This document shows, in pieces, positions 45,993-63,000 of a stretch of DNA of 64,000 nt. Below the pieces are notes generated by a model, which did no database searches, was not told the origin of the DNA, and saw nothing but the letters and a program-made list of their open reading frames with translations. The stretch covers positions 17,725-81,724 of the forward strand of contig JAPPLB010000093.1 of NCBI GenBank assembly GCA_028819575.1, read 5' to 3'. Position numbers and translations under genes: made by a program. How positions within the stretch are numbered: position 1 is the stretch's first letter; every line of letters starts with the position of its first letter. Source of the stretch: Bryobacterales bacterium (GTDB lineage Bacteria; Acidobacteriota; Terriglobia; Bryobacterales; UBA6623).

Positions 45993-46907
45993 TTGCAACG
46001 CGCCGTTCAGGTCCTGAAGTATCTCGTCCCGGTGGTCATCGCGTTCTTCATCGGAAGGGTCATCTATCAGAACTGGCAGGAGGTGCGGAATGCGGCCTGG
46101 AGTTTCCGACCTATCGAGCTTTCGGCTTCGTTCCTGCTGACCGGCTGGTGGTTCGTGCTGCGGCCCCGCGTGTGGGGATTCGTCCTGGACCACTTCGGCC
46201 ACAAGCTCACTTTCCACCAGGCGTTCCAAGTGGTGCGAAAAGCGGAGCTGAGCCGTTACGTGCCCGGCACGATCTGGCAGTACGTCAGCCGCATCTACCT
46301 GGCCGGCCGCTACGGCGTGCCCACCCATGCGACCATCGCCACCACGCTGGTGGAAACGGTCATTCTGTTTCTGGCGTCGCTGATTCCCGCCCTGTGGTTC
46401 CTGTCGGAAACGCTGCCGTCGCTGAACCGCTATCACCTGATCATGTTGTGGATCATCCCGATCGCGGCCTTCGTTGCGATCCACCCCGGGGTTCTGAACT
46501 TCTGGGCGAAACGCCTCTCCCGACGGCTCAAGCAGGACTATGAACCGCTGAAGATCCGCTGGCTGACGATGGCGGGCATCTGGGCGTTCCTGCTGCTGAG
46601 CTGGCTGATCTTCGGGACCGCGGCCGCGCTCTTCGTCCGCGGAGTGCTCGCGACGCCGTGGGGAATGATTCCGCAGCTCGCGAGCGACTACGCGCTTTCC
46701 TGGGTGGTGGGCATGATCTCGATGATCGCGCCCGCCGGGATGGGCATTCGCGACGGCATGTTCGGCCTGCTCGTGGGACAGCGCATCGGCATCGGCACCG
46801 CCATGACCGTCGCCATCGGCCTGCGGCTGTGGCTGACGCTGACCGAGCTGGCCTGGACCTTCGGCGGCCTGTGGTTTTTGGGGCGGGGAAAAAGCCGTGT
46901 TTCGTGA
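45993..46907 (+). CDS. Integral membrane protein (LPG-synthase TM / UPF0104-like)
   Basis: The 304-residue product starts at TTG and has about seven to eight membrane helices. SRYVPGTIWQYVSRIYLAGRYGVP and the IAPAGMGIRDGMFGLL segment are marks of the lysylphosphatidylglycerol synthase transmembrane family, which handles lipid-linked substrates. Paired with the GT2 gene 48 bases upstream it likely belongs to a glycolipid pathway. The last codons (KSRVS and the TGA) are made of the first heptamers of an intergenic array, so the native C-terminus may have been altered. Confidence 0.8.
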   Translation: MQRAVQVLKYLVPVVIAFFIGRVIYQNWQEVRNAAWSFRPIELSASFLLTGWWFVLRPRVWGFVLDHFGHKLTFHQAFQVVRKAELSRYVPGTIWQYVSRIYLAGRYGVPTHATIATTLVETVILFLASLIPALWFLSETLPSLNRYHLIMLWIIPIAAFVAIHPGVLNFWAKRLSRRLKQDYEPLKIRWLTMAGIWAFLLLSWLIFGTAAALFVRGVLATPWGMIPQLASDYALSWVVGMISMIAPAGMGIRDGMFGLLVGQRIGIGTAMTVAIGLRLWLTLTELAWTFGGLWFLGRGKSRVS

Positions 46908-47031
46908 TTCGTGTCTCGTGTTTCGTGACCCCAAAACCAGGCGGGCGGTAGGGCCGTTGCTCCAAGGCAACATGAAAAGCCGTGCCTCGTGTTTCGTGTT
47001 TCGTGTCTCGTGAAAAACCGGTTGGCCGGGC
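46889..47031. repeat. Heptamer/module mosaic array 1
   Basis: AAAAAGCCGTG is followed by TTTCGTG, ATTCGTG, TCTCGTG and TTTCGTG, a GGGCCGTTGCTCC module, a second AAAAGCCGTG with four heptamers, and a cut GGTTGGCCGGGCTT module that ends at MITE copy 3. The first heptamers form the end of the preceding gene. Confidence 0.85.
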
Positions 47032-47240
47032 TTAACCTGCATTTCTCACCACCCGACGGTCGAAGCACGCGATACGACCGCCAGGACTTCGTTGCGCTTG
47101 CTTGCCGTGCTCAATGTACTGTTCAAGTACGCCTGCGCGCGCCAAGCGGCTCGCGCCTTTTTCCTCCGCCCGGCTTGCGCCTAGTCCTGACGGCCCTCTC
47201 ACCCACTTCGCCTCGCCTCGTGGTGAGACATGCAGGTTAA
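47032..47240. mobile_element. MITE-like element, full copy 3 (209 bp, TTAA duplication)
   Basis: Core ends as in copy 1, but both borders are TTAA instead of CTAG. The matched change at both ends shows that the tetranucleotide is a target duplication and not part of the element. Confidence 0.88.
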
Positions 47241-47301
47241 GGAAATTATTGATTCAGAGCACCACACGCCCTGGACATGGAGTTGACTTCATATGTACTG
47301 A

Positions 47302-47679
47302 ATGCCATATTGTGGGGTGAGCTGGGTTGTCGAAATTGCCGACGAGTTCGAGCCGGAGTTCGACGCGCTCCCCGAAGATGCGCAGACAGAGATATTGGCG
47401 CTGTCGCGGTTATTGCAGCAGTTCGGACCGCGTCTCGGGCGACCTCGGGTTGACACGCTCAACGGCTCACGCCACAAGAACATGAAGGAACTGCGGTTCC
47501 ATACGGCGGATGGCCAATGGCGGGTGGCCTTTGCCTTCGACACGAAACGGAAAGCCGTCCTGCTCGTGGCTGGAGACAAATCCGGAGGCAGCGAAAAACG
47601 GTTCTACCGCCGGCTGATCCGCAAGGCCGATGATCGTTTTGACGAGCTTCTCTCCCGTTTGAAGAAAGAAGGCAAGTAA
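47302..47679 (+). CDS. RelE/HigB-like toxin (Gp49 family)
   Basis: The 125-residue basic protein matches the phage-derived Gp49/HigB group: EIADEFEPEFDALPEDAQ, then RPRVDTLNGSRHKNMKELRF, GQWRVAFAFD and FYRRLIRKADDRFDELL. These ribosome-dependent mRNases are held inactive by an antitoxin. A GTG at 47317 is an alternative start. The XRE antitoxin gene follows after 2 bases, with toxin first as in HigBA modules. The gene starts 61 bases after MITE copy 3. Confidence 0.85.
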   Translation: MPYCGVSWVVEIADEFEPEFDALPEDAQTEILALSRLLQQFGPRLGRPRVDTLNGSRHKNMKELRFHTADGQWRVAFAFDTKRKAVLLVAGDKSGGSEKRFYRRLIRKADDRFDELLSRLKKEGK

Positions 47680-47681
47680 CG

Positions 47682-48008
47682 ATGTCTGTGAATGTAGAGG
47701 AAAAAATCAGCAAGCTAAGCCCCGCTCAGCGCAAAAAGGTCGAGGGGCGCGCGGCAGAGTTGATCGCTGAGGAAATGACCCTGCGCGAGCTGCGCAAGGC
47801 CCGCAAGCTTACGCAAGTACGCATGGCCCGTCAGCTTGGCATCACGCAGGACAGCGTATCGCGGCTGGAGAAGCGTAGCGATCTTCTGCTTTCCACACTG
47901 AGGAAGACCGTGGAGGCCATGGGGGGAAACTTGTCGCTGGTCGCCCAATTCCCGGATCGCGCGCCGGTCGTCCTGGCGGGGATTGCAGAGGACGACCCGC
48001 GCGGGTAA
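47682..48008 (+). CDS. XRE-family antitoxin (HigA-like)
   Basis: The 108-residue protein carries a helix-turn-helix (LRELRKARKLTQVRMARQLGITQDSVSRLEKRSDL, about 38-72), preceded by a helical region and followed by LRKTVEAMGGNLSLVAQFPD, the usual XRE antitoxin plan. It should bind the toxin and repress the shared promoter. It starts 2 bases after the toxin stop. Confidence 0.85.
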   Translation: MSVNVEEKISKLSPAQRKKVEGRAAELIAEEMTLRELRKARKLTQVRMARQLGITQDSVSRLEKRSDLLLSTLRKTVEAMGGNLSLVAQFPDRAPVVLAGIAEDDPRG

Positions 48009-48047
48009 ACCAAAGTCATGTTCCGCTGCTTGAAAAGACCTGACCGG

Positions 48048-48079
48048 CACTTCGCCGGGCCACGGGGGAGACATACAGG
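48048..48079. repeat. Degraded right end of the MITE-like element
   Basis: CACTTCGCCGGGCCACGG followed by GGGAGACATACAGG resembles the right end with several changes. Confidence 0.45.
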
Positions 48080-48090
48080 GTCGCGGCTCG

Positions 48091-49800
48091 TCAGATTCCG
48101 GCTTTCCTGCGGTAGACCTGATAGGTTCGCGTGCGCGGCTTGCTTCCGCGGTCCCACCAGGGGACACCATGAAGCGGATAGGAGTATTCCCAGACTTTCT
48201 CGAAGCGATCATCGAGGCCGCGGGGATGTCCTCCGCGCGGGTTCCAGAACACATACCAATCCACGCCGGGGTAATCGTCGAACTGGTCGTCGGGTATGCG
48301 TCCGCGGAACTGCTGATTGTGGGGCGCTTCGCTGTCGAGCAGGGCGACCCAATGCATATCGGGGATATAGAAATAGACGGCCATGCCCTTGACGTTGCGG
48401 AAAAAGGCGACCCTGTCGCCGGGGTCGAGGTTGGCCTGGAGATAGTCGATCAGGGGCTGGGTATAGGAGGCATCGCGGGTCAGTTGGCGTTCCAGCATCT
48501 GCTCGCCGCCGGAGCGGTTCCAGTTGAGGTTGGGCCAGACGACGACCCCCGCCAAGAGCGCGGCGGCGGCCCGTTTGCCGGCGGCGCGCCGGGTCTGCGC
48601 GGCCGCCAGGGCGCAGAGCAATACCGCGGCCGGCACGGTCTGATAGTAGTGCCGCGTATTCACTCTGTTCTTTCCGACGGCCACCGCGAACAAGGGCGAC
48701 AGGAACAGGACCAATCCCGCCAGCAGGGCGGCGCGGCTCCAGACTCCCCGTGAGGGCAGCTTCCGCCAGGCCCACAAGAAACCGAGCGGGACGGTCAGGC
48801 ATAGGGAGGCGAACAGCCAGAAGGCCGCGGCGGGCAGAGCCAGAATATCCGAGGCCGAGAAGAAGAACGACGAGAGGGCAAGAAGAGAGCCGCCGCCCAG
48901 CAGGGCGGTCAAGGCCGGCGGAGAAGAGGGCGCCCGGCGGCAGAACAGAAAGAAGCCGACCGGAACCAGCAGAACCAGAGGCACGGCCCGCCAGAAATCG
49001 CGGCCTCGAACCGTCAGCGCCTCAGCATAGATCTCGTCGAGCGAGCGGTCGATCGGCGGCGGCCACATGCCGGCGAACTCCCAATGCAGGAAGCGGAACT
49101 CGATGCCCAACAAGACGGCCAGGACGGCCGACAGCTTGACGAACCCCCGCAGGAACCTGCGGTCGGCCTCGATCAAGGCGAAGACGCCGAGCGCAAGCCA
49201 CATTCCCGCGAAGGCCACGTAATTCGACAGGTAGAGCATTGCGCCGTAGAGCCCGAGCCGGAGATAGAAGGCCCGCGACGCGGCGCGCTCGGGTTCGCGG
49301 AGGTAGCGGCACATCTCCAGCAGCAGCAAGGCCGCCGCCAGCAGGATGAGGACGTAATAGCGGGAGCTTCGCGCGGCGTAGAGAAAGTAGATCGACAGGA
49401 GACCGATCGAGGGAAGCATCAGCGGACGCGCCCCGCCGCCGAAGAGCACCACGCCCACGCGGTACAGAACGAACAACGTCGCCGCGCCGAGCAGGGCGAA
49501 GGGCGCCCGGGCCGACCAGGTACTGACGCCGAGCAGCTTGAACCCCACCGCGCTCACGTAGAACTGCAGCCAGCTCTGCATGGCGGGCAACAAATGGGAG
49601 TTGACGTCGTGACCGTCCGCCGCCTGCACGATCAGTTGCTCGCCGTCGAAGACGCGCGGAATCCACACGCCGCTCTCGGCCATCAAGCGCCCCCAGTTGG
49701 CGGTCGTCGTCTCGTCGCGCCACAGCGGGACGCCATCGAGGCGCCAGAAAAGCAGAAACGCCGAGAGGAGAACGAGCAGGACAGCGAGAACGTTGCGCAT
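48091..49800 (-). CDS. Membrane glycosyltransferase (ArnT/GT39-like, GT-C fold)
   Basis: From ATG 49800 the product has 569 residues with about eleven membrane helices. The first loop carries the acidic pair of GT-C enzymes in WRLDGVPLWRDETTTANW, and AARSSRYYVLILLAAALLLLEMCRYL is typical of the family. It should move a sugar from a lipid-phosphate donor to a periplasmic acceptor such as lipid A or protein. The frame remains open upstream to 49989 through a MITE end, but the signal-like MRNVLAVLLVLLSAFLLFW is the natural start. Confidence 0.8.
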   Translation of the reverse strand: MRNVLAVLLVLLSAFLLFWRLDGVPLWRDETTTANWGRLMAESGVWIPRVFDGEQLIVQAADGHDVNSHLLPAMQSWLQFYVSAVGFKLLGVSTWSARAPFALLGAATLFVLYRVGVVLFGGGARPLMLPSIGLLSIYFLYAARSSRYYVLILLAAALLLLEMCRYLREPERAASRAFYLRLGLYGAMLYLSNYVAFAGMWLALGVFALIEADRRFLRGFVKLSAVLAVLLGIEFRFLHWEFAGMWPPPIDRSLDEIYAEALTVRGRDFWRAVPLVLLVPVGFFLFCRRAPSSPPALTALLGGGSLLALSSFFFSASDILALPAAAFWLFASLCLTVPLGFLWAWRKLPSRGVWSRAALLAGLVLFLSPLFAVAVGKNRVNTRHYYQTVPAAVLLCALAAAQTRRAAGKRAAAALLAGVVVWPNLNWNRSGGEQMLERQLTRDASYTQPLIDYLQANLDPGDRVAFFRNVKGMAVYFYIPDMHWVALLDSEAPHNQQFRGRIPDDQFDDYPGVDWYVFWNPRGGHPRGLDDRFEKVWEYSYPLHGVPWWDRGSKPRTRTYQVYRRKAGI

Positions 49801-49860
49801 CAAGGGGACCGGCAATTGCGCCCTGGGAGAGCCTAGTATAGCCGACACCGGCAGATCCGC

Positions 49861-49887
49861 CTCGCCACTTTGTGAGACATGCAGGTT
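49861..49887. repeat. Right end fragment of the MITE-like element
   Basis: CTCGCCACTTTGTGAGACATGCAGG is the outer right end; the tetranucleotide after it has decayed. Confidence 0.5.
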
Positions 49888-49891
49888 CGAT

Positions 49892-51604
49892 CTACCGCAG
49901 CCCTTCCTGGCCGAACTGTTCGCGGGTGGGCAGGGCCTGGAGGTCGAGGACCGAGGTCTCACCCGACTTGACTTCAACTTTCCCGCCATAGCGAGCGAGT
50001 TTCTTTCGATATCTGGGGTCTTCGATGCTGTAACCGGCGCGGTCCGGAAACGCGAACGCCTCGTATTCGCCGGGCGGCACCGCGGTGATCTCGAATCCTC
50101 CCTCGCGCACCCGTCCCATAAGCCGGGGGTGAGCAGACGGACCCTCCCCGGCCGGCAGGAGCCGCACCGTTCTGGCAGGCGGAAGCAGGCCGCCCTTTCC
50201 GAGAAGGGCGCCCGTCGACTCGCCGTCTTCCAACTCCCTCACGGTCCCCCGGACGGTCCCCGTCGCAAAGCTCATCGTGAGAACTACATCGCCGGAAATC
50301 CCGTTCCGCGGGACGGTCAGCTTCGATCCTGGCATGGGGCGGCCGTCGATCTCGATGCCTTCGACATAGGCGCCCTTCGGGCCGAAGGCCATGAGCCGAT
50401 ACCGCCCCGGGACGGCCGTCAACTCGAACGGCCCTTCCCCGCCCATCCCCTCGACTTTCGCGAACATGCTCCGAGTGCGCCTGGTTTCCGTCGGGTCCAG
50501 GTTGTCCGCTTCCAGCCGAATCTGCGACGACCAGACCCCGCTTTCATCGCCGACGGAATCCGGCGGGTCAACGAGGACCAGCCGGCCCACGATATCGCGC
50601 TCGGCAAGAGCCTCGACCTCGACGGCCTCGACTCTTCCTTCCGACACCGTGAACGGCTGGCGGCCGAAAGCCTGGCGGCCGGTTCGACGGTCATACAGGC
50701 GCGCGACCGCCAGGTAACGCCCCGGCGGCAACCCGAACAAGGAGAACGACCCCCGTTCGGTTGTCGACCGGCTTCCGACCATCCTGACCGAACTCCCGTC
50801 CCGCCGATACACCTCGAACCGGCATGGGCTGCAAGAGATGCGCGCGTCCGGGCTCGAGACGCGGCCGTGAGCGCTGGTGGGCGGCGCCTTCACAAGGCGC
50901 ACGTCGATGCCCTGCTTCTCCTCTCCCCATTCGACCGTGACACGAGCCGCGCCGCTCAACGAGCCGGCGTTCGGATAGTAGCCCGGCGCGGCGGCGAAAC
51001 GAAGCTGGCCATCCAACCCCGGCTCTTCGGTGGGACGGACCGCGATCACATACTCGTCCGCCGACAGCCCGAAGATGCGGTACACGCCGCGATCGTCCGT
51101 TCGAAAACCACCGTGAAAGCGGGTCATGCGGGAGTTCTGGTCCCGCCATCGGAGACGGCCTTCAAGGAATTGCTCCCGCAGCGCCTCGACTCTCGCGCCG
51201 ACGACAGCGCGGCCGTCTTCGTCCAGAACGCGTCCGGTGATCACCGCCGAGCGGTTGATTTGCAGGTCCAGGCCATCCAACGGCCGGCCGGAGGGAATCC
51301 GGATCCTCTTCCGCAACAACTCATGGCCGGGCGCCGCGACACCGATCTCGTATTCCCCGACCGGCGCGTTCTCGATGACAAACGAGCCATTGAAGCGGGT
51401 GAAGGCCGAGACGTTCTCGCGCTCGCGGGCCGTGACCGCCACCTTGGCGCCTCGGACCGGGACGCCCCTCTGCCCCGAAAGCACCCGTCCGCGCAACTCG
51501 ACCGTCTCGGCCGGCTGGGCCGGGCCGGCGGACTGCCCGCCGGGCTGCGCACACACCAAGCCCGCCGACGCGAGAATCGAAGCTGCAAGAACGCGAGTCC
51601 TCAT
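49892..51604 (-). CDS. Exported multi-domain CarboxypepD_reg-like protein
   Basis: The 570-residue product starts at ATG 51604 with a signal (RTRVLAASILASAGLVCAQ). It is a string of carboxypeptidase-regulatory-like beta-sandwich repeats with recurring marks such as VELRGRVLSGQRGVPVRGAKV, GSFVIENAPVGEYEIGV, AVITGRVLDEDGRAVVGARV, GVYRIFGLSADEYVIAV and GSFSLFGLPPGRYLAVARL. No catalytic domain is present, so it is likely a surface or periplasmic binding/structural protein. The start codon lies within a solo end of the MITE-like element (CTAGCCTGCATGA on the coding strand). Confidence 0.78.
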   Translation of the reverse strand: MRTRVLAASILASAGLVCAQPGGQSAGPAQPAETVELRGRVLSGQRGVPVRGAKVAVTARERENVSAFTRFNGSFVIENAPVGEYEIGVAAPGHELLRKRIRIPSGRPLDGLDLQINRSAVITGRVLDEDGRAVVGARVEALREQFLEGRLRWRDQNSRMTRFHGGFRTDDRGVYRIFGLSADEYVIAVRPTEEPGLDGQLRFAAAPGYYPNAGSLSGAARVTVEWGEEKQGIDVRLVKAPPTSAHGRVSSPDARISCSPCRFEVYRRDGSSVRMVGSRSTTERGSFSLFGLPPGRYLAVARLYDRRTGRQAFGRQPFTVSEGRVEAVEVEALAERDIVGRLVLVDPPDSVGDESGVWSSQIRLEADNLDPTETRRTRSMFAKVEGMGGEGPFELTAVPGRYRLMAFGPKGAYVEGIEIDGRPMPGSKLTVPRNGISGDVVLTMSFATGTVRGTVRELEDGESTGALLGKGGLLPPARTVRLLPAGEGPSAHPRLMGRVREGGFEITAVPPGEYEAFAFPDRAGYSIEDPRYRKKLARYGGKVEVKSGETSVLDLQALPTREQFGQEGLR

Positions 51605-51613
51605 GCAGGCTAG
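51602..51613. repeat. Solo end of the MITE-like element carrying a start codon
   Basis: On the minus strand CTAG-CCTGCATG matches the outer left end; its ATG is the start of the following gene. Confidence 0.5.
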
Positions 51614-51745
51614 CGTTCCGCCCCCGCCCAAGTGCGGATCAATCACAGCAAAAAAAGTCACGTCGCGCCTTCCGTCCTACCTCTTCCGTCCCTTCGCACC
51701 GTCCCCGTTTCGACCTATCCGTGGCGAGGATTGTGAGTTTTCACA

Positions 51746-53509
51746 TCAGCGTTCCGCTGTCAGGTCGACTTCCATCTCGAAGCCCGGCTCGACCGTGATC
51801 GTCCGGACCGCCGAGGCGGCCTCCGCCCAGGCCTCTTCATCGGAGACGTCGGCGGCGGGGTCGCGCCAGGCGGCGATCCGATACTCGCCCGGTATCACCT
51901 TTTCGAAGGCAAACACCCCGTTCTCGTCCGCCGCGGAGGAAAACGAACCGCGGGCGCCGCGCAGGCCGACGAGGAAATGCGCGCCCGCGGGCCGGGATTC
52001 CCGGCCACCGCCGCGGGCCAGGCGAACCGCGCCGAAAATCTTGGCGAACTCGGACGAAACCTGCATCTCGAGGCCGGTCATCGAGCCCGGGTGCACGGTG
52101 AAGGAGTAGTCCTCCACGAGGTAGCGGTCGCCGGGGCGCAGCGAGGCGCTGTACTCGCCCGGGGGCAGCCCGCCGTGCTCGAACGCATAGTCGGGCCCTT
52201 CGACCCGCAGGTATTCCCCGGCCCTCGGTTCGGTCCCCCTGGGATGGATTCGAACATTCAGGTTGCTCTTCTCCCCATCCGCAAACGCGACCCTGCCGCG
52301 AACGCCCGTCGGCGGGGAAGGCCGCAAACGCAGATCCATCAGATCCCGGTCGACCGTCAGCACCGCGAGCAGCCGCATGTCCCGCGTATTGGATGAGCTA
52401 TCCTGCCCGGTCTGCAAGACGTAATCCCCTTTCTCGAGCCCATCCACCCGAAACTTTCCTTCCCGAGCCACCATGAACAGGGCCCAGGAATCGCCGCCGC
52501 GGGCGGCCTTGGGCCGGATGGCGACGAAGGTCGGGTGAGGCTCTTCGTCCGTGAGCCGCTCGACGATTCCGGAAATCGAGAACACGCCGGCGTCCCCCCG
52601 CAGTTGAAAGCTCACCGACTGGGGTTCGACGCCGCCGGCGATCTCGACCTCACGAGCGTCGAGCCGGAACTTCGGCAGCCAGCCAGGGAACAGGAAGCGC
52701 ATCCGCGCCTCGAACAGGTAGCGGCCCGGCTTCAGGCCCCAGATACGGAAGTAGCCGCGGTCGTCGCTCAGCGCGCTCCCTGCCGCCCTGCCGCCCGCAC
52801 GGCCCCGCCCGAGCCGCTCCGTCGGCGCACCGGGAGCGGGCGTGAGCGTCACTTCCGCCCCTTGCACCGGCCCTCCGAAGTCGTCGCTCAGATAACCCTC
52901 GAGCACACCGGCGCGGGCGGCCAGGAAGTCAATGCTGCCGCACTCGCCCTCCGGCGGACAGGTGCGCGTGATGGTTTCCGAGTCCAGCCCGCCCGCTTTG
53001 AGCGTGTAGCAACCCTCGGCGGCGACACCGAGGGTTACACGGCCTTCGGGCACGCCCTCGATCAGATAGCGCCCCCGCGAGTCGGTCTCGGCCTGCGCGA
53101 CTACGCGCTCGGGACTGCCGGCCTTGACCTGGACGTAGGCTCCGGGCAGCGGAACGGCATCGGAGCCGTCCTGCTCGAATACCGTGCCCGAAAGGAAGGC
53201 GGCGCCCCAGGCCGCCTGGGCGAGCACCAGCGACCCGGCAAGGGCAAGGAGGAAAAAGCCGTGTTTCGTGTCTCGATAAAAAGCCGTGATTCGTGTTTCG
53301 TGTCTCGTGATTCGTGAAAACCTTGGAATTCGCGCTGGCTTGCGCCGCGCGCCAAGAAAGGCCGTGTTTCGCGTCTTGTGTCTCGTATCTCGTGAAAAAC
53401 CGGTTGGCCGGGCTTGGGGTGGCTCGGCAAAACCTCGTGTTTCGTGTTTCGTGAAAACCCGTTGGCCGGGCCTTTGGTGGCTCAAGCCGGAAACGAACCG
53501 GTCAAGCAT
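51746..53509 (-). CDS. Exported CarboxypepD_reg-like protein with a repeat-encoded N-terminus
   Basis: From about 53257 down, the protein reads FFLLALAGSLVLAQAAWGAA, a signal-peptide core and cleavage region, then repeated carboxypeptidase-regulatory-like sandwiches (SGTVFEQDGSDAVPLPGAYVQV, GRYLIEGVPEGRVTLGV, GYFRIWGLKPGRYLFEARM, GKFRVDGLEKGDYVLQTG). No in-frame ATG, GTG or TTG lies next to the signal core; the nearest starts (TTG about 53485, ATG 53509) are upstream within heptamer-module sequence, which is translated as RDTKHG, HETRIT and similar. The gene is a paralogue of the one downstream. The 5' end is therefore uncertain, and the native start may be lost. Confidence 0.65.
   Translation of the reverse strand: MLDRFVSGLSHQRPGQRVFTKHETRGFAEPPQARPTGFSRDTRHKTRNTAFLGARRKPARIPRFSRITRHETRITAFYRDTKHGFFLLALAGSLVLAQAAWGAAFLSGTVFEQDGSDAVPLPGAYVQVKAGSPERVVAQAETDSRGRYLIEGVPEGRVTLGVAAEGCYTLKAGGLDSETITRTCPPEGECGSIDFLAARAGVLEGYLSDDFGGPVQGAEVTLTPAPGAPTERLGRGRAGGRAAGSALSDDRGYFRIWGLKPGRYLFEARMRFLFPGWLPKFRLDAREVEIAGGVEPQSVSFQLRGDAGVFSISGIVERLTDEEPHPTFVAIRPKAARGGDSWALFMVAREGKFRVDGLEKGDYVLQTGQDSSSNTRDMRLLAVLTVDRDLMDLRLRPSPPTGVRGRVAFADGEKSNLNVRIHPRGTEPRAGEYLRVEGPDYAFEHGGLPPGEYSASLRPGDRYLVEDYSFTVHPGSMTGLEMQVSSEFAKIFGAVRLARGGGRESRPAGAHFLVGLRGARGSFSSAADENGVFAFEKVIPGEYRIAAWRDPAADVSDEEAWAEAASAVRTITVEPGFEMEVDLTAER
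53251..53490. repeat. Heptamer/module mosaic array 2
   Basis: Several AAAAGCCGTG units with two to five heptamers each, joined to a GGAATTCGCGCTGGCTTGCG module and two GGTTGGCCGGGC modules. It runs directly into the signal-peptide coding region of the minus-strand gene. Confidence 0.85.
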
Positions 53510-53593
53510 ACCTGCTCGCGGCCAGCGGCTCGCGCCTTGTCCCGACAGCACTCTCACGGACTTCGCCTCCCCCGGTGGTGAGATATGCGGGCT
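53500..53593. repeat. Right-half fragment of the MITE-like element
   Basis: CAAGCATACCTGCTCGCGG then CCAGCGGCTCGCGCC, ending GTGGTGAGATATGCGGG. About 94 bp of the right half with scattered changes, lying between two heptamer arrays. Confidence 0.65.
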
Positions 53594-53627: not shown

Positions 53628-53876
53628 TCAAAAAAGCCGTGTTTCGTGTCTCGTGTTTCGAAAAAAAGCCGTGATTCGTGTTTCGTGTCTCGTGTTTCGT
53701 GACCCAAAACCCCGGGGGGGCGGGGCGGCCGTGGCTCTCTAGCGGCTTGGGGGGAAGGCCGATAAAAGGCCGTGATTCGTGAAAACCTCGGAACTCGCGC
53801 TGGCTTGCGCCGCGCGGCTTAAAAGCCGTGATTCGTGATTCGTGAAAAACCGGTTGGCCGGGCTTGGGGCGGCTCT
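53628..53876. repeat. Heptamer/module mosaic array 3
   Basis: Holds AAAAAGCCGTG units with heptamers, one GGGCGGCCGTGGCTC module, one GGAACTCGCGCTGGCTTGCG module and one GGTTGGCCGGGCTTGG module, ending 24 bases before the deacetylase stop. Confidence 0.85.
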
Positions 53877-53899
53877 ACCAGGGGACGACGGACAGCAGG

Positions 53900-55141
53900 C
53901 TAACGGATCTCCAGGACGGTGTCGGGTTGGACGGTAATCAGCAGGCGGCCGTTGTCGAGGCGGTAGAACTCGTCGTCCCAGCCGTAGGACGGGCCGGCGC
54001 TTCGCGGCGCGAGCTCGCCGCGGGCGGTCCGCACGGAGGCGACCTCGCGGCCGCCGGTGTCGAACTCGATGGTCACGCTGTTGGGGAACACGCGGGGCGA
54101 GAGATCGTGCGTGACGGCGAAGCGGGCATCGTCGAGGGGATGGACCCGGGTGCGCTCGACGACCGTCCGGTAGGCGTAGAGCGGTCCCATCGGGACGTAC
54201 CAGACGTCGCCGCGGCGGGCGATATGACGAATGTGCCGCTCGTAGTAGGAGCCGGGCTCGTAGTCGAGCCAATTGGGATGGGTGAGGAAATTGTAAATGC
54301 CTCCCGCCTCGTAGACCTCGTCGAACGCGCCGTTGATCAGCGCCACGTCGGTCCGGCCCTCGGGAGAAATGCCTCCCTTGTTCTGCACGGCCTGCGTGTA
54401 CAAAGCCCGATAGGGACGGCGGTCCCAGGTGTTCATGCCGGGCGCCAGTTGGCCGCCGATCAACTCGTCCGGGTAGATGCGCGCCGCCAGGTAACCGGCG
54501 TGACGCAGCTTGTCGCGCACGAAGGCGTATTCGGGGCATTGCCCGCAGGGGTAGGCGAACGACCAAACGTGAGGCTGATCGACCTGGGCCAGGATGCGGT
54601 CACGCGATCCGATCAACTCGTCGTTCGAGTAGGCCAGGATGCAGAACCAGCGGTCCGGCGGGAACTGGCAGGGGTGGGTGCGGGTGTGAGAGCCGATCTC
54701 ATGGCCGTTGTTGACCGCGCGCGCCAGGACGGGCCACAGGCCGCCGGCGTGAAAGGTGCTGACGAAGAAGGTGGCCTTGACGCCGTAGCGGTCGAGAATG
54801 GCGAGCGCATCGGGAATCCTGGGGCTGGAATCGTCGGCGGTGTGCGTGACCACCGCGCGGGCGTCGTTCCAGTAGTTCGTCAGCCCGACGACGCGGACGC
54901 CGCCGGAGGAGCCGCCGCCGCGAACGTCCGCCGGATCGATGCCGAGCCGCGCGAGCGGGTCGCCGGAGCGGCGGCCGATCGGCTCGGGATCGGTGAACCA
55001 GGTTTCCAGGTCCGACGGAGCGAGCCTCCTGTCACGGATGAGATGGCCGGCCCAGACGGCGGCGGCGAGCAACAGCAAGGCCAGGATGAGCCGAAAAAAG
55101 GCCGTGTTTCGTGTCTCGTGATTCGTGTCTCGTGAAAACAT
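53900..55141 (-). CDS. Polysaccharide deacetylase (NodB-like), membrane anchored
   Basis: The 413-residue protein contains a NodB homology domain: ALAILDRYGVKATFFVST, the metal site SHTRTHP, and an early acidic motif in VVTHTADDSS, consistent with zinc-dependent removal of acetyl groups from polysaccharide or peptidoglycan. A membrane helix (LILALLLLAAAVWAGHLI, about 18-35) anchors it. The residues before the helix (MFSRDTNHETRNTAFF) are encoded by heptamer repeats, and no other ATG is present near the helix, so the repeat supplies the start and the positively charged head. Confidence 0.78.
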   Translation of the reverse strand: MFSRDTNHETRNTAFFRLILALLLLAAAVWAGHLIRDRRLAPSDLETWFTDPEPIGRRSGDPLARLGIDPADVRGGGSSGGVRVVGLTNYWNDARAVVTHTADDSSPRIPDALAILDRYGVKATFFVSTFHAGGLWPVLARAVNNGHEIGSHTRTHPCQFPPDRWFCILAYSNDELIGSRDRILAQVDQPHVWSFAYPCGQCPEYAFVRDKLRHAGYLAARIYPDELIGGQLAPGMNTWDRRPYRALYTQAVQNKGGISPEGRTDVALINGAFDEVYEAGGIYNFLTHPNWLDYEPGSYYERHIRHIARRGDVWYVPMGPLYAYRTVVERTRVHPLDDARFAVTHDLSPRVFPNSVTIEFDTGGREVASVRTARGELAPRSAGPSYGWDDEFYRLDNGRLLITVQPDTVLEIR

Positions 55142-55316
55142 CGGAATTCGCGCTGGCTTGCGCGGCGCGCTTTAAAAGCCGTGATTCGTGTCTCGTGTCT
55201 CGTGTCTCGTGAAAACCTCAAAACCTGTTTTTAGTTTTTCGTGAAAACCTCGGAATTCGCGCTGGCTTGCGCCGCGCGCTTTAAAACCCGTGTCGTCTCG
55301 TGTTTCGTGAAAACCT
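55093..55316. repeat. Heptamer/module mosaic array 4
   Basis: Begins with AAAAAAGGCCGTG and four heptamers, includes two GGAATTCGCGCTGGCTTGCG modules and runs up to a MITE-like end. Its first part forms the 5' end of the deacetylase gene. Confidence 0.85.
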
Positions 55317-55324
55317 GGCATCCC

Positions 55325-55348
55325 CAGGTGATGAGATATGCATGCTAG
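55325..55348. repeat. Right end of the MITE-like element with CTAG
   Basis: AGGTGATGAGATATGCATG, then CTAG at 55345-55348, which holds the stop codon of the hydrolase gene on the minus strand. Confidence 0.6.
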
Positions 55349-56657: not shown

Positions 56658-56765
56658 GTGAAAATAGTCCGGGAGTATGGCAGGAGCCGCTTTTCCCGTC
56701 AGACGCGTTCGGCCGGAACGAATCGGACGCGGCCCCCACCAACTCTCACAGGGCGCGATCGCGCT

Positions 56766-58094: not shown

Positions 58095-58473
58095 GTGTTT
58101 CTCCTTGATTCTTCCTCAAAAGAAAGTACTCGGCATCACAAGATGCCCTTTCGAATTCGAACGAGACGCTCAGGCGTGAACCCGGCTCTCATTTCGTTTC
58201 ATGGTATCGGGCGATGCCTCGGTACGCCGTAAGCATACCATGGCAGGCGCCGTCAAGTCCAGCCTTGCGCGGGGTTCGTCAACGCACTATGGAACGTTCC
58301 CCTGGCCCGGCATGGGTTGGCTGACGGCGCGAAGCATCACGTCCGTGGCGCGAAGGCCCGCTTTCCGGGAGCAAGCAAGCGGCTTGCTCCGTTGGCGCAG
58401 CCGTGGCGCAGGACGAGGACCCCACCCACGATACCATCAATCCTTCTCTCACAAATTCCGCGGCTTGTCAAGG
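58095..58473. other. Intergenic stretch upstream of the acidic protein gene
   Basis: No gene recognised. The AT-richer part next to 58094 probably holds its promoter, but I cannot place boxes with confidence. Confidence 0.4.
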
Positions 58474-58866
58474 GAAAGGCCGTGTTTCGTGTCTCGTGTC
58501 TCGTGACCCAAAACCGGAGGTGGCAGGCAGGGCCGTGGCTCCAGGGCGGGAGGAAAGGCCGTAAAAGCCGTGTTTCGTGTCTCGTGTTTCGTGCCTCGTG
58601 GAAAACCGGTTGGCCGGGCTTGGGGCGGCTCTCATTGGAGTCGCCACAGGGGCGACGGCGTTCCCTGGAAAGCGGTTCGAGAAAAAGGGGCCGTTGGGTA
58701 GGGCCGCATCGCCACGGACATGGCGTAAGCAAAGATTATCCAGAGATTCATGAAACATGCGGGCCGGAAATTGGTTCAGGAAGGAAAAGCCTAAAAAGCC
58801 GTGTTTCGCGACTCGTGTTTCGTGACCCCAAAACCCGGGAGGCGGTGCGGCCGTGACTCTCTGGCG
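58474..58866. repeat. Heptamer/module mosaic array 5
   Basis: Two parts (58474-58632 and 58792-58866) with AAAGGCCGTG units, heptamers, GGGCCGTGGCTCC modules and one GGTTGGCCGGGCTTGG module, separated by unrelated sequence. Confidence 0.8.
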
Positions 58867-59070
58867 GTATTGGCCGGAGGGGGCTCTTGTTCCCTGGAAA
58901 GGGACGCTTGCGCTGGGAGGCGATGCATTCAGGAAGCCTCTGACCCGGCTGCCGCTTGCCGCTGTGCGCGGGGGCGCTTGCTATGCGGCCCCGGGGGAGC
59001 CGGGCAATAGTGGGCAATTCCGGGCAATTGTGAGCAAGGAAGCAAGGCGGGGACTCGGGAAAGGGCTGAA
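58867..59070. other. Intergenic stretch between arrays
   Basis: No gene recognised; a short AATAGTGGGCAATTCCGGGC run repeats a GGGCAATT motif three times near 59005-59035. Confidence 0.4.
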
Positions 59071-59462
59071 AAAAGGCCGAGAAAAAGCCGTGATTCGTAT
59101 CTCGTGTCTCGTGTTTCGTGAAAACCTCGGAATTCGCGCTGGCTTGCGCCGCGCCCTGGCATAAGCCGTGTTTCGTGTTTCGTGAAAAACCCCCGGGGGC
59201 AGGGCGGCCGTGGCTCTAAAGCGGCATTCGGTAAGGCCGAGAAAAGGCCGTGTCTCGTGTCTCGTGTTTCGTGTTTCGTGAAAACCTGTTGGCCGGGCTT
59301 GGGGTGGCTCAACAAAAACCCGTGATTCGTGTCGAAAAGGCCGTGTTTCGATAAAAAGCCGTGTTTCGTGATTCGTGACCCAAAACCCCGGGGGTCGGGG
59401 CGGCCGTGGCTCCACGGCGGCTTGGGGAACGGCCATAAACTCCTTGATTCGTGTTTCGTGAT
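59071..59462. repeat. Heptamer/module mosaic array 6
   Basis: The longest array: six or more AAAAGCCGTG-type units with heptamers, two GGCGGCCGTGGCTC modules, one GGAATTCGCGCTGGCTTGCG module and one TGTTGGCCGGGCTTGG module. Confidence 0.85.
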
Positions 59463-59514
59463 GGGCGGGCATGGTTTCTTGCATCGGGCGTTCAGGTCGA
59501 CGAGGGCCCCTCGA

Positions 59515-59538
59515 TGCGAGGTGAGAAAAGCAGGCTAG
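59515..59538. repeat. Right end of the MITE-like element with CTAG
   Basis: GAGGTGAGAAAAGCAGG, then CTAG at 59535-59538. The CTAG contains the stop codon of the gp27-like gene on the minus strand. Confidence 0.6.
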
Positions 59539-60119
59539 ACACCATAGATTTCCCGGATGACCTCCCTCACCTTCTCAGGGGTGGCGGGGACACGCCTGGC
59601 AGCCTTGGCTTTCTCGGCCTCCTCGGCGGCCTGGCGCTTGATCTCGCGGTCACGGCGTACGGCGATCTCACTGGAACGCTCGAGGCGCTGCGCCATGAGG
59701 CTGACCTTGTTGGCGCTCGCGACGATGCCGGGCAGCGACTTCTCGTCGATCACGCGGTCCTGGAGACCCTGGATCTGGTAAGCGAGGTCGAACACCAGCA
59801 TGCGCAGCATTTCGGTGACGATATGGCCGAACTGCCCGGCGGGCACCGAGCCCAGCTTGTCGGCCCAGACCTCAGTGACCTGCCGGGATTGGGCCAGCCG
59901 CTCACAGGCCGCCCGCATGCGCTGGTCGTAGCGGTTGACGGCCTGCCGGCTGACGTACTCGGCCGGTTTTCCCTCCGGCTGCTGCGCCGCCAGCTCGTCG
60001 AGCAGGGCGTTGGTCCGCTCCGTCGCCTCGGTCTGCGTGATGGCGGGGTCGCGCAACCAGCCTTGGAGCGCCTCGCGGACCTCGCTCGGCAACCGATCGA
60101 TGCTGCTGGGCTGTGACAT
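59535..60119 (-). CDS. Mu gp27-like phage protein (DUF3486), orphan
   Basis: The 194-residue product fits the DUF3486/Mu gp27 family: SSIDRLPSEVREALQGWLRD, then TQTEATERTNALLDEL, a helical centre and a basic tail (RRDREIKRQAAEEAEKAKAARR). In Mu-like phages gp27 lies beside the large terminase subunit and is thought to act in DNA packaging. No other phage gene lies within reach here, so this is an orphan, either a prophage remnant or a reused DNA-binding protein. Its stop codon comes from the MITE-like CTAG. Confidence 0.68.
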   Translation of the reverse strand: MSQPSSIDRLPSEVREALQGWLRDPAITQTEATERTNALLDELAAQQPEGKPAEYVSRQAVNRYDQRMRAACERLAQSRQVTEVWADKLGSVPAGQFGHIVTEMLRMLVFDLAYQIQGLQDRVIDEKSLPGIVASANKVSLMAQRLERSSEIAVRRDREIKRQAAEEAEKAKAARRVPATPEKVREVIREIYGV

Positions 60120-60192
60120 GATTCTTCTCCCTTATTCTCCTATTTTATCCCATATTATCTCATTTTCTTCGCTCCCTTCCGGCTCGGACTTT

Positions 60193-60475
60193 TAAAAGGC
60201 CGTGTCTCGTGTCTCGTGATTCGTGTTTCGTGACCCCAAAGCAAAACCTAGGCAGTAAGCAGGCGGTACGGCCGTTGCTCCAGGACGGCTTGGGAAGAAG
60301 CAGTGTCTCGTGTCTCGTGAAAACCGGTTGGCCGGGCTTGGGGTGGCTCTTGTTGGGAGCGCAGGTGAAACGGGAAAGGCCGTGTTTCGTGTTTCGTGTT
60401 TCGTGACCCTAACAGCTTAAAGGCAGTGGATAGTGAATTCGTGAAAAACCGGTTGGTGAGGCTTGGGGTGGCCGG
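60193..60475. repeat. Heptamer/module mosaic array 7
   Basis: AAAAGGCCGTG with heptamers, a GTACGGCCGTTGCTCC module, and two GGTTGGCCGGGC/GGTTGGTGAGGC modules. Confidence 0.85.
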
Positions 60476-60512
60476 CCCCGGCAGCCTTCCCTGTGCTGTA
60501 AGATCATGTATG

Positions 60513-60525
60513 TCATGCAGGCTAG
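60513..60525. repeat. Solo end of the MITE-like element
   Basis: TCATGCAGG, then CTAG (60522-60525); only the outer right end remains. Confidence 0.45.
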
Positions 60526-60583
60526 CGGCGGCGAGCCGCGTCCTGGTTCATGACTTCGGCAGACCGGGCAAGGAGAATAAGTC

Positions 60584-61156
60584 ATGGCCACTTTGACCGA
60601 ACCCGCTCCCGGCGAAACCTCCGGGGCGCTGTTTCGCGCCCTGCGAAGCGCCGGCGTCGAACCCGATCTGGCCCAGCAGCCCGTGGCAAAAGTCACGCAG
60701 GCGGCGTTACGCGCCGCGGGGCCGGTTGCCTGATGCATGGATGCTCCAGGAACACAGCACCGTGCTTTCCGCGAAGCCAAGCGGAAGCGGCGCGTAACCC
60801 TTCGGGCGACGGACGTTTGCAGCCGTCGGCTTTGTCGTTCGTCGGAGGAGATCACCCGGATCGCCATCCTCCTCACTCCGCGCCGAGCGACCGCAGGAGC
60901 CCGTCGCGCCTTCCACGGGACTTTTACCACGGACTGCTAGCTCGCCGATGACGAGATGCGCACTCACGCCGGCCAGAATGTCATTACAGTCGTGAATGCG
61001 CGCTTTGACGAACTCAGCGCCAAGATCGACGCCGTGAACAGCCGCATCGACGCCGTGAACAGCCGCATCGACACCCTGCAGCGGGTCATCTGGCCGCTCG
61101 TGGTGCTGCTGGCCTCGACGGTCTTCGGCCTGCTGTATCGCGTCCTCACCTCGTAG
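60584..61156 (+). pseudogene. DUF1640-like coiled-coil membrane protein, split by a MITE
   Basis: ATG 60584 follows AAGGAG and starts MATLTEPAPGETSGALFRALRSAG, ending EPDLA before the element at 60674. After the element the frame resumes with LADDEMRTHAGQNVITVVNARFDEL, a coiled coil with a duplicated NSRIDAV, and a membrane helix (VIWPLVVLLASTVFGLLYRVL), stopping at 61156. Joined, the parts give a protein of about 100 residues with the head-coil-anchor plan of small DUF1640/CCDC90-like proteins. As it stands the first part ends at a TGA inside the element (60731-60733). A new start at ATG 60956 could still yield the coiled-coil anchor alone. Confidence 0.6.
60674..60940. mobile_element. Second MITE type (about 267 bp) inserted in a coding region
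   Basis: Inverted ends AGCAGCCCGTGGCAAAAGTC (60675-60694) and the complement of AGCAGTCCGTGGTAAAAGTC (60919-60938) match at 18 of 20 positions. Flanks CTGGCC (60668-60673) and CTCGCC (60941-60946) differ at one base and look like a target duplication. Inside is a second inverted pair (GTTACGCGCCGC / GCGGCGCGTAAC). No transposase is present. It is unrelated to the 209-bp element. Confidence 0.7.
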
Positions 61157-61187
61157 CGCGGCCTGTCCCTTGCACCCGGGCTGCTTT

Positions 61188-61447
61188 GAAAAAGGCCGTG
61201 TTTCGATAAAAAGCCGTGATTCGTGTTTCGTGTCTCGTGTTTCGTGAACCCCTAAAACCCGGGGGTCGGGGCGGCCGTGGCTCCAGGGGGGGCTTGGGTG
61301 AGAAAGGCCGTGATTTGGGGAAAACCTCAAAAGCCGTGTTTCGAAAAAAGGCCGTGATTCGTGTCTCGTGATTCGTGAAAACCTTGGAATTCGCGCTGGC
61401 TTGCGCCGCGCGTCAGGAAAAGCCGTGTTTCGTGTTTCGTGGTCGTG
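61188..61447. repeat. Heptamer/module mosaic array 8
   Basis: Five AAAAGCCGTG-type units, heptamers, one GGCGGCCGTGGCTCC module and one GGAATTCGCGCTGGCTTGCG module. Confidence 0.85.
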
Positions 61448-61527
61448 CAACCTGGGCGGGCTATGGGGCCGGGTTGAGACAGGTTTTATCCGTGCTTATT
61501 TGTTGGTGGTGATGCGGTTGGTTGGGT

Positions 61528-62820
61528 TCAGGGTTGGGGCAGGGCGGCTTTGGCTCGGTCTACTTCGGCGGGGCGAACTACCAGGAGCATGAGCAGGGGG
61601 ACGGCCATGGCGAGGCCGGCGAACCAGAAGGACTGGACGTAGGAGAGGGCGAGGCCTTCGCGGAGGGGTCCGACGAGCCAGTTGCCGAAGACGTGGCCGA
61701 TGTTGGAGACGGTCATGAAGATGGTGTAGACGGTGGCGGCGGCGCGGGTCCAGGAGATGCGCATCGACATTGCGAGGTAGCCGACGGTACCCATGGCGAG
61801 GATGCCGGGGTTGAGGAAGAGGTAGCCGGCGGTGAGCCAGGTCTCGCGCCAGAGTGACGAGCACAGGGCGAAGGCAATGGCCATCAGTCCATAGCCGCCG
61901 AGGCCCATGAGCATGACCTTGCGGCGTCCGTAGCGGTCGGCGATGTAGCCGCCGAGCAGCGCCCCGCCCATCTCGGAGAGGGCGGCGGAGCCGGAGACCT
62001 GCGAGACCTCGACGAAGGTCCAGCCGAGCTGCTGGGTGTAGAGGGTCTTGGTGATGACCTCGACGATGCCCCAGCCGACCATGCTGATGGTCCCGAACAC
62101 GACGAAGACGGCGGTGGAGGTGAGCGAGAAGCCTTGACGCAGGTCGCGGAGTACGCGGCCGGGGCTGCGAAAGCTCGAATCGGCGGCGGCGCCGCGGGCC
62201 GCGCCGCGGCTCCACGGGAAGCGCTTCTCGCCGGGCCGTTCGAGCAGCAAGAGAGGGAACAGCATGAGGAGCAGCAGGAGTCCGAACTGCACCATGACGG
62301 CCCCGGAGAGGCCCCAGGCGTCGATGGCCATGGCCATGACGGCGCCGCCGATGCCCTTGCCGATCAGCTTCGAGCCCCACATCAGCCCGTTGGTGCGGCC
62401 CTGCTCGGGGGGCGGCAGGACGTCGACGGCGAGGGCGTCGGTGGAGACGTCCTGGAGGGACGAGAAGCAGTTGTGGATGAAGAACATCCAGCCCAGCAGG
62501 CGCAGGTTTTCGGTGAGGTCGCCGAGCAGGAGGATGCCGATCAGCGAGAGCGCCATGAGGAACTCGGCGGCGATGATCCAGAAGCGGCGGCGGCCCATCG
62601 AGCGGACCGTGACGGTGTCGATGAGGGGTCCCCAGACGAGCTTGAAGGTCCAGGGGAGCAGCACGACGGCGGTCAGCTCGCCGGCGTCGCCGTCGCCCAC
62701 GCCGCGATCGGTGAGGTAGCTGATCAGGGCGATCGTCATGAAGCCCCAGGGGACGCCCTGGGCGAAGTACATCGCGCAGAGCATCCCGAGGCGCTGGCGG
62801 CGGTTGTCGATGAGGGCCAT
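61528..62820 (-). CDS. AmpG/PAT-like MFS transporter
   Basis: From ATG 62820 the product has 430 residues and about twelve membrane helices. MYFAQGVPWGFMTIALISYLTDRGV, LPWTFKLVWGPLIDTV, GRRRFWII and SSLQDVSTDALAVDVLPPPEQG are typical of the AmpG/acetyl-CoA transporter (PAT) family, which in enterobacteria takes up anhydromuropeptides. The central loop and later half (GGYIADRYGRRKVMLMG) fit the MFS fold. Substrate not known. The open frame upstream of 62820 is heptamer and MITE sequence and is rejected. Confidence 0.82.
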   Translation of the reverse strand: MALIDNRRQRLGMLCAMYFAQGVPWGFMTIALISYLTDRGVGDGDAGELTAVVLLPWTFKLVWGPLIDTVTVRSMGRRRFWIIAAEFLMALSLIGILLLGDLTENLRLLGWMFFIHNCFSSLQDVSTDALAVDVLPPPEQGRTNGLMWGSKLIGKGIGGAVMAMAIDAWGLSGAVMVQFGLLLLLMLFPLLLLERPGEKRFPWSRGAARGAAADSSFRSPGRVLRDLRQGFSLTSTAVFVVFGTISMVGWGIVEVITKTLYTQQLGWTFVEVSQVSGSAALSEMGGALLGGYIADRYGRRKVMLMGLGGYGLMAIAFALCSSLWRETWLTAGYLFLNPGILAMGTVGYLAMSMRISWTRAAATVYTIFMTVSNIGHVFGNWLVGPLREGLALSYVQSFWFAGLAMAVPLLMLLVVRPAEVDRAKAALPQP

Positions 62821-62887
62821 GCGTTGGGCGGATCGCCGGACGGGAGCTTCACGGGGGGGCGAAGCGAGGTGATACGGTAGCACAGGG

Positions 62888-63000
62888 GGAAAAGGCCGTG
62901 ATTCGTGTCTCGTGTTTCGTGTTTCGTGAAAACCTAAAAGCTCGGGGGTCGGTAGGGCCGTGGCTCTAGAAAAAGCCGTGATTCGTGTTTCGTGTTTCGA
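62888..63000. repeat. Heptamer/module mosaic array 9
   Basis: AAAAGGCCGTG with four heptamers, a GTAGGGCCGTGGCTC module, then AAAAAGCCGTG with three heptamers. Confidence 0.85.

Follow-up and report, generated by a model that had tools for sequence, protein, structure and literature searches.

Repeats that fill the intergenic space of bacterial genomes have been described in several forms, and the subject of this text is a further one, found in a 64,000-nt stretch (the window) of the draft genome of a Bryobacterales bacterium (Acidobacteriota): short runs of TCGTG-type heptamers joined to GC-rich modules, together with larger palindromic inverted-repeat elements. In Porphyromonas gingivalis, the BrickBuilt element (MITE464/PgRS) holds a minisatellite within a miniature inverted-repeat transposable element (MITE), with ends like those of a resident insertion sequence (IS) family. 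It is described as always intergenic, with both ends kept in 4 of 19 copies and flanking duplications of uneven length (PMC4596501). The elements studied here are alike in that a minisatellite lies within a miniature inverted-repeat element, in their intergenic position and in ends matching a resident IS family. However, BrickBuilt has units of 23 or 41 nt in 10-20 copies and IS5-type ends (PMC4596501), whereas here the units are 7 nt, come in three main variants, mostly number at most four per run and occur in hundreds of copies, with several GC-rich modules, IS1380-type ends and a strong regional orientation.

Tandem heptamers are known from several groups of bacteria. The TAACTGA repeats of the Beggiatoaceae consist of one unit and lie mostly just upstream of start codons in the genome studied (PMC4679880). 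GGGAATC of Xanthomonas and the Nostoc-type heptamers are presented as generally without mobile-element association, in a source that also cites heptamers of Calothrix and Helicobacter and reports variation of the Xanthomonas set between close relatives (PMC4692102). These repeats and the present ones have in common that they are short, intergenic and tandem, but the run described here is a module of mobile-like repeats and has no clear preference for a gene context. STAR elements of staphylococci are clustered GC-rich direct repeats with recurring spacers, intergenic and expanded in specific lineages; the core is 14 bp long, and the authors consider change inside a locus likelier than exchange among loci (PMC3532100). 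The likeness lies in the intergenic GC-rich clusters, the recurring spacers and the lineage-specific expansion, and the difference in the 14-bp core and in the inverted-repeat ends, which are not noted for STAR in the excerpted source. Bacterial interspersed mosaic elements (BIMEs) and REPINs are intergenic mosaics of palindromes, in which repetitive extragenic palindromic (REP) sequences alternate in orientation and accompany genes for REP-associated tyrosine transposases (RAYT) (PMC2817692; PMC3116915). Here, unlike in these descriptions, neighbours are co-oriented, and no RAYT was found with PF01797 in the source genome or its heptamer-rich relative.

Minisatellites in MITEs, intergenic heptamers and STAR elements are already known; the distinctive feature of the present family is its orientation rule. 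The heptamer doubles and the end sequence (four strings) did not occur in the literature text searched, and no orientation-biased miniature elements like these were present among the literature matches listed. Lagging-strand targeting by IS200/IS605 and by a group II intron is on record among these matches. The arrays are interpreted, with moderate confidence, as modules of a genome-wide intergenic mosaic family that consists partly of palindromic miniature elements with IS1380-type ends, likely spread by a transposase of that type and likely reshuffled by recombination between copies.

The source genome (G000) comprises 5.37 Mb on 200 contigs and is 98.7% complete; the window covers positions 17725-81724 of contig C161, the end of which coincides with the end of the window. 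G002 and G001 are relatives in the same genus. In the window, 27 tandem runs of at least two (N)(T/C)TCGTG units were counted, 27 on the forward strand and 0 on the reverse. The modules M1 (GGTTGGCCGGGC), M2 (one base left free) and M3 occur 5, 6 and 4 times, all on the forward strand. Genome-wide, the double heptamer WYTCGTGWYTCGTG gave 437 forward and 436 reverse matches (873, overlaps counted) against 0 for a reversed control. The mosaic that had been proposed from the sequence is therefore real, and the possibility that it is confined to this contig or is a random coincidence falls away, as also follows from the triple heptamer WYTCGTGx3, matched 458 times in G000 and 441 times in G002. 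The count in relatives that the original prediction had called for gave 5 matches in G001 and 0 in the other 97 of 100 genomes. With tandem heptamers in intergenic DNA at many loci (873 double-heptamer matches), the family fits heptanucleotide repeats of the short tandemly repeated repetitive (STRR) type. The patchy distribution was borne out, as 26 of the 27 window runs lie within 46,900-62,994 and one at 30,658. The statement that nothing occurs in the first 30 kb is correct for heptamer runs, but a plain family member lies at 23,393-23,593, and a heptamer-bearing element follows at 30,608-30,774.

Beyond the genus the pattern thins out. Among 396 genomes of the phylum, nine including G000 contain the triple heptamer, the eight others with 2-10 copies each, mostly uniform ATTCGTGx3; a reversed control pattern is found in 5 genomes of this set as well, and 2-10 copies are therefore near background for heptamer repeats. 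In viral contigs 31 triple-heptamer stretches were found, again mostly uniform repeats, and most of them have neither leader nor module in the 45-60 nt inspected on each side. Around the triple heptamers of two contigs filed as viral, L277 and L280, the flanks resemble a leader (AAAAGCGCGTG, AAACCGTG) and a trailer (GTGAAAATC). Short heptamer runs of the TCGTG kind are widespread, and the dense mosaic with modules was seen only in this genus. A 3-kb contig labelled Rhodothermales (L118) carries a heptamer-bearing element, and transfer across phyla was considered for it; this was rejected since its first 0.5 kb are 93-94% identical to G002 and G000, and the contig is probably a mislabelled relative, judging from its sequence.

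The anatomy of the heptamer unit was studied in fetched stretches, anchored on the leader AAA(A/G)GCCGTG with no condition on the downstream sequence. The order is a GGCCGTG-like leader, heptamers, a trailer and a GC-rich module. Of 240 leaders, 193 have a trailer within 60 nt and 47 do not, and in 161 of the 193 the leader-trailer distance is divisible by seven. These 161 units contain one (22), two (21), three (31), four (81), five (5) or seven (1) heptamers, so that the run length of two to five originally given has to be lowered to mostly one to four, with more than four in 6 of 161. In a slightly smaller set, positions 3-7 of the heptamer are 95.5-98.5% one base, and variation is found at positions 1 and 2. 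This variation had been read as free (A/T)(T/C) combinations. Instead, three units, ATTCGTG (156), TTTCGTG (122) and TCTCGTG (110), make up 388 of 463 heptamers, while ACTCGTG is rare (18); the association between positions 1 and 2 (Fisher p = 1e-16) indicates that whole unit types vary and not free bases. The modal order is AT-TT-TC-AT, and 32 orders occur among 70 four-unit arrays. The description as shuffled copies is a fair one; that of a code of interchangeable units is not, given three main variants, a modal order and short runs, and the best explanation requires no encoded function of the heptamers. M1, M3 and M4 were also compared as possible diverged copies of one module, which was dropped (alignment z 0.4-3.5). 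A second class of heptamers, NNTAGTG, follows the same kind of leader (AAAGGCAGTG) at 60419-60445 of the window and at ~13.2 kb on the minus strand of L048.

The original prediction had missed the inverted-repeat elements around the heptamers. Their left arm stands in front of the heptamer run in 46 of 161 units, and a second test gave 40 of 137. In these composite elements, which were seen directly, a left end, (Y)TA(R)CCTGCATTTCTCACCACCCGACGG, is followed by leader, heptamers, trailer and one of several modules; intact copies have a right arm after the module, terminating in GTGGTGAGAAATGCAGG(Y)TAR. The plain form consists of the same two arms without heptamers and is palindromic. In total 108 pairs of terminal inverted repeats (TIRs) were found, most commonly 176 bp (20), 177 bp (17) or 201 bp (14) apart from end to end, and one plain G002 copy folded into a single long hairpin (z = -5.1). 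The TIR pairs have the length and palindromic structure of miniature elements; the armless heptamer units, which are the majority in the window, do not by themselves. Several window clusters are closed by a solo right end. Four heptamers are present in 31 of 46 units behind a TIR arm versus 50 of 115 without one, and this greater uniformity is as expected of recent expansion.

Matches to the end sequence (R)CCTGCATTTCTCACCAC number 504 in G000, 175 in G002 and 1 in G042, with none in G001 or the other 57 of 61 genomes; the plain element does have relatives in G001 that are further diverged, with about 72-85% identity over the longer matches. The matches to the end sequence listed in public genomes include records under the labels Verrucomicrobia and Gammaproteobacteria, among others; in several of them the interior is a different one. 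An 18-base match is expected by chance a few times in so large a collection, and weight is therefore given only to records with multiple copies or paired ends. Elements of 175-177 bp with the same ends are found in L094 and L096 (labelled Gammaproteobacteria), L117 (Proteobacteria) and L066 (a relative of the same order); the interiors in L094, L096 and L066 differ from those of G000, and that in L117 is the same. Positions 179-251 of L094 match a group II intron in Rfam (RF00029).

Members of the IS1380 family, among which ISEcp1, have a DDE_Tnp_1_4 transposase, matching ends and 4-bp YTAR flanks, and ISEcp1-like elements capture neighbouring genes. The corresponding domain (PF13701) was matched 7 times in G000, 5 times in G001 and 8 times in G002. 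Two near-full open copies were found, both in G000, each of 492 codons (domain E = 2.9e-148). On the left they end in CCCGCATTTCTCACCA and CCTGCATTTCTCACCA, of which CCTGCATTTCTCACCA is identical to the end of the miniature elements, and both right ends are CCCGGATATCTCACCA, with 3 mismatches to that end. IS copies and miniature elements thus have ends of ~16 bp in common, with 0-3 mismatches. One near-full copy is flanked by CTAA on both sides and the other by CTAG; the sequence in which the second is embedded matches a miniature element's interior. Of the 214 flanks of paired miniature elements, 116 are CTAG, TTAG, TTAA or CTAA, and identical 4-bp flanks occur in 26 of 107 scorable pairs (null mean 10.9, maximum 22 in 1000). 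At one site an empty CTAG in G002 faces two elements in G000, between TTAG and CTAT. Matching IS ends, YTAR flanks and the filled and empty CTAG site together fit a DDE element that targets 4-bp YTAR sites. The search for a co-occurring transposase that had been advised was thus rewarded, and an IS1380-type enzyme is the likely mover. The selfish repeat moved by an unseen enzyme that had been proposed is likely to be right; a RAYT, one of the genes to be searched for, is not supported as its mover, with no PF01797 match in G000 and G002. The elements resemble IS1380 and ISEcp1 in their matching ends and YTAR flanks, and differ in being non-coding and in their heptamers and modules. In L189 (~1256-2979) a near-full IS1380-family copy has apparently inserted at CTAG within a miniature element. 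In G002, 1.6 kb between two element ends (L114, 1316-2937) holds an IS110-family transposase broken into two open pieces, as if an IS110-family element had entered a 176-bp miniature element near its centre.

Arrays were compared between G000 and G002. Eighty clusters were tried, most of them without both flanks among the fetched G002 stretches; at the 7 comparable sites, with flanks 90-96% identical, 3 arrays differ and 4 are absent from G002. The check that had been advised, whether arrays differ at syntenic sites, thus came out positive, here between two species. Modules M1, M2 and M3 succeed one another in several ways (n=137), and in the 40 of these units behind a TIR arm the module on the right is M1 (2), M3 (2), M4 (19), M5 (10), M6 (1) or another (6). 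The heptamer run is the sequence common to these varied junctions, from which we infer that recombination between copies pairs there. In the proposed mechanism, an IS1380-type transposase, or a lost relative of it, would move the elements in trans. The heptamer run, as the sole sequence common to all module types, would be the hinge at which copies pair during gene conversion or template switching, and pairing there would reorder units and swap modules. Orientation would be fixed by the direction of replication, with inversions later scrambling the blocks. The apparent code would then become a testable model of how an intergenic mosaic grows, by nesting of miniature transposons with a common heptamer core that lets modules exchange.

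Several observations weigh against this interpretation. A single window run out of 27 (at 30658) lies inside a complete pair of ends, the other 26 being part of tandem leader-heptamer-module clusters, and in the fetched stretches no left arm was recognised for 115 of 161 units. The heptamer leader itself forms the left junction at one G000 site; with the armless majority, this means that armless units need another route of spread. The interiors of the IS and the miniature elements are unlike: over the 70 bp compared by eye at each IS end, agreement was limited to the terminal ~16 bp, and the interior common with a parent IS that marks an IS1380-derived MITE was not seen. Identical flanks are missing from 81 of 107 element pairs, and the flanks of the filled site opposite the empty CTAG are unlike. 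G001 and G002 carry PF13701 matches of which none is intact and full-length, yet G001 is almost free of heptamers. Exchange of modules is uneven: behind a TIR arm, 29 of 40 units carry M4 or M5 and none carries M2. The gene conversion invoked is read from sequence patterns. At one site the elements in G000 and G002 are oppositely oriented, and we know of no reason for a DDE element with symmetric ends to keep one orientation.

The alternatives account for parts of these data. An ordinary minisatellite, in which heptamers arise by slipped-strand mispairing as in other heptameric repeats and the modules are mere neighbouring repeats, is unlikely, though it agrees with the integer unit numbers, with their variation at syntenic sites and with the mostly uniform runs of other phylum genomes and viral contigs. 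Slippage alone is a weak account of a pile-up at four units (81 of 161, with 6 above four), and it leaves the fixed leaders, trailers and modules in their several combinations unexplained. Adjacent identical units are also rarer than expected from shuffling within arrays (48 of 331 versus 66), to which little weight is given, as the avoidance is weak on unique orders (38 of 224 versus 45, p 0.06-0.08). A functional DNA or RNA signal, such as a transcription terminator, an attenuator or a regulatory protein-binding array, is more doubtful still. The constancy of heptamer positions 3-7 speaks for it, and so does the absence of elements from genes: with gene calls from a codon-usage open reading frame caller made for this analysis, whose starts are over-extended and which overlooks some genes, gene cores contain 0 of 254 elements and over-extended 5' ends contain 2, in sequence that is 84% coding (for merged heptamer loci, 0 of 112 and again 2). 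However, every arrangement of neighbouring genes is used. The gene pairs to the left and right of arrays are -/- (17), +/+ (13), +/- (13) and -/+ (13) in G000, and -/- (7), +/+ (2), +/- (7) and -/+ (10) in G002, the rest in both genomes being at contig ends; relative to the array, divergent and convergent pairs number 13 and 13 in G000 and 10 and 7 in G002. Terminators, leaders and promoters are therefore unlikely. The units tested fold no better than shuffles (z -0.6 to 2.3, 8 RNA strands), Rfam has no match within the window, and the arrays change or vanish at all seven syntenic sites. Intrinsic terminators and RNA structures were rejected on the folding and the gene-pair contexts, and with them the transcription-end structures first suggested.

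Two known types of intergenic array come into consideration for the palindromes. The elements could form an unusual integron cassette array with attC-like palindromic ends, in which case a toxin-antitoxin-like pair in the window would be a cassette. Uniform local orientation, a long imperfect palindrome and the fact that this pair is bounded by element ends and lies elsewhere in G002 are what such an array would show, but the ends match IS1380 ends with YTAR flanks, and the copies, about 1 per 7-9 kb, are scattered over a large number of contigs and over gene contexts of every kind. The integron is held to be very improbable on these grounds, although no search aimed at an integrase was made. 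A REP/BIME-type element moved by a RAYT (Y1) transposase also gives a high-copy, intergenic, palindromic mosaic. The Y1_Tnp domain PF01797 has 0 matches in G000, 0 in G002 and 9 in G001, where triple heptamers number only 5; with the domain missing from both heptamer-rich drafts, RAYT was rejected as the mover and this explanation is scarcely credible. That the arrays are not CRISPR was rightly stated, since the sequences between leaders are recurring modules of varying length and not unique spacers of fixed size.

Under the preferred reading, a mosaic of IS1380-ended miniature elements, the orientation of the copies is the least expected property. It was analysed for 286 elements in 2.14 Mb, on contigs that are not a random choice (array-bearing ones first, later ones by number or length). 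Neighbouring elements are co-oriented in 203 of 228 pairs (135 of 151 in G000 and 68 of 77 in G002), with 63 of 66 for heptamer-heptamer, 90 of 100 for mixed and 50 of 62 for plain-plain pairs; an earlier count of 156 of 170 neighbours was reached by 0 of 2000 shuffles. For all pairs, concordance is 0.97 below 2 kb, 0.93 at 2-5 kb, 0.92 at 5-10 kb and 0.86 at 10-20 kb, and then 0.63 at 20-40 kb, 0.50 at 40-80 kb and 0.38 at 80-120 kb; the value of 0.75 at 120-210 kb comes from 95 pairs on few contigs, as do the longest distances in general. Agreement of 86-97% for pairs up to 20 kb apart, regardless of gene direction, is unexpected for DDE elements with symmetric ends. Neighbouring genes were rejected as its cause, with 213 elements on the same strand and 244 on the opposite one and gene-strand concordance of 0.49-0.51 beyond 5 kb. 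Mean identity is 0.858 within 20 kb (115 pairs) versus 0.849 between contigs (4512 pairs; p = 0.48). Proximity thus brings no greater sequence likeness, and local copying or duplication was rejected as the cause on these figures.

Orientation also follows base composition locally and is plausibly tied to the direction of the fork. Third-position T/A skew, corrected for gene strand, is related to the sign of the element by -0.0515 +/- 0.0062 within 3 kb and -0.029 +/- 0.007 at 3-10 kb, with nothing at 10-20 kb; these errors assume independent genes, which genes not quite are. Over 76 domains the T/A effect is -0.045, with 0 of 2000 sign flips as large, and G/C is null (p = 0.28). Genes in these domains lean to the strand opposite the elements (-0.113, p = 0.0025). 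Whole-sequence skew in the first 18 domains did not track orientation, either for GC (p 0.73) or for TA (p 0.42). The corrected T/A skew itself forms domains in G000 and G002 contigs that fade over tens of kb (autocorrelation 0.24 to 0.04), which suggests a chromosome scrambled by inversions. Orientation as a property of a whole replichore is not supported directly, given the concordance at 40-80 and 80-120 kb. At ribosomal L2 the nearest elements are opposite in both species and the sign flips 34-43 kb along; at dnaA the nearest G000 elements are opposite and the nearest G002 elements are more than 30 kb away, these markers being few and not independent. The favoured explanation is a single orientation of the elements relative to the replication fork, on a chromosome divided into blocks by inversions. 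The site with opposite elements in the two species means that exceptions to the rule arise.

It is tentatively proposed, as a possibility in which less confidence is placed than in the mosaic itself, that a miniature element with near-identical ends inserts or survives only one way round relative to the fork. About one oriented arrow per 7-9 kb would then testify to the direction of the fork and to earlier inversions spanning tens of kb, and the heptamer run, part of the asymmetry of the palindrome, might be an orientation or recombination signal. To our knowledge, no fork-oriented behaviour has been described for IS1380-type elements. If orientation is linked to the fork, such elements would naturally mark, in uncultured bacteria, which way forks run and what inversions have taken place, and replication and transposition of the IS1380 type, to which ISEcp1 belongs, may be coupled.

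The features of the window are listed in Table 1. In the second of the two units at the left of the main cluster, M1 is interrupted after GGGCTT by the element at 47036. The syntenic site in G002 has the same two units, with other unit numbers, and an uninterrupted M1-like module. The element within this M1 (47,036-48,079), of which there is none at this site in G002, carries a DUF891 (Gp49-like) and helix-turn-helix (HTH) gene pair, toxin-antitoxin-like, flanked by element ends. The G002 copy of the pair lies elsewhere, on C154, and is split near its junction by a repeat copy. This captured pair resembles the capture of genes by ISEcp1-like elements.

Table 1 Arrays and inverted-repeat elements in the 64,000-nt window
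Feature	Position	Strand	Remarks
Plain 201-bp element	23393..23593	+	CTAG on both sides
Complete inverted-repeat element with heptamer run	30608..30774	+	Leader 30647, heptamers from 30658
Plain 201-bp element	41397..41597	+	Both ends present
Two head-to-tail units: leader, 4 heptamers, M3-like; leader, 4 heptamers, M1	46889..47035	+	
Plain palindromic element	47036..47236	+	Both terminal repeats, TTAA on both sides; missing at G002 site
Composite: plain element and DUF891/HTH pair (47302-48008)	47036..48079	+	Further right-end-like sequence 48064-48079
Heptamer-unit cluster, modules M2, M1, M1-like	53253..53477	+	
Solo right end of inverted-repeat element	53576..53591	-	
Heptamer-unit cluster, modules M3, M2, M1	53631..53875	+	
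Heptamer units, two M2 modules	55096..55344	+	Solo right end 55329-55344
Three heptamer units: M3-like, M1, M3-like	58475..58860	+	
Heptamer units with M2, M3, M1, M3	59082..59534	+	Solo right end 59519-59534
Heptamer units, modules M3-like, M1, M1-like	60194..60470	+	TAGTG-type units near 60424
Heptamer units, M3 and M2	61190..61441	+	Includes truncated leader-TTTCGA units
Two heptamer units, then right arm and right end of inverted-repeat element	62890..63120	+	Right end 63105-63120
Left end of further element	63951..64000	+	Truncated by contig end

Many of the fetched G000 contigs (e.g. C8, C9, C19, C161) start or stop within an element, and the draft assembly therefore seems to break at elements. 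Between the arrays, a gene of the phage Mu Gp27 family (PF11985) is located at 59535-60119 of the window. A separate repeat of ~265 bp at 60675-60940, in a window where Rfam gave no match, has more than 20 copies in G002 at 79-94% identity.

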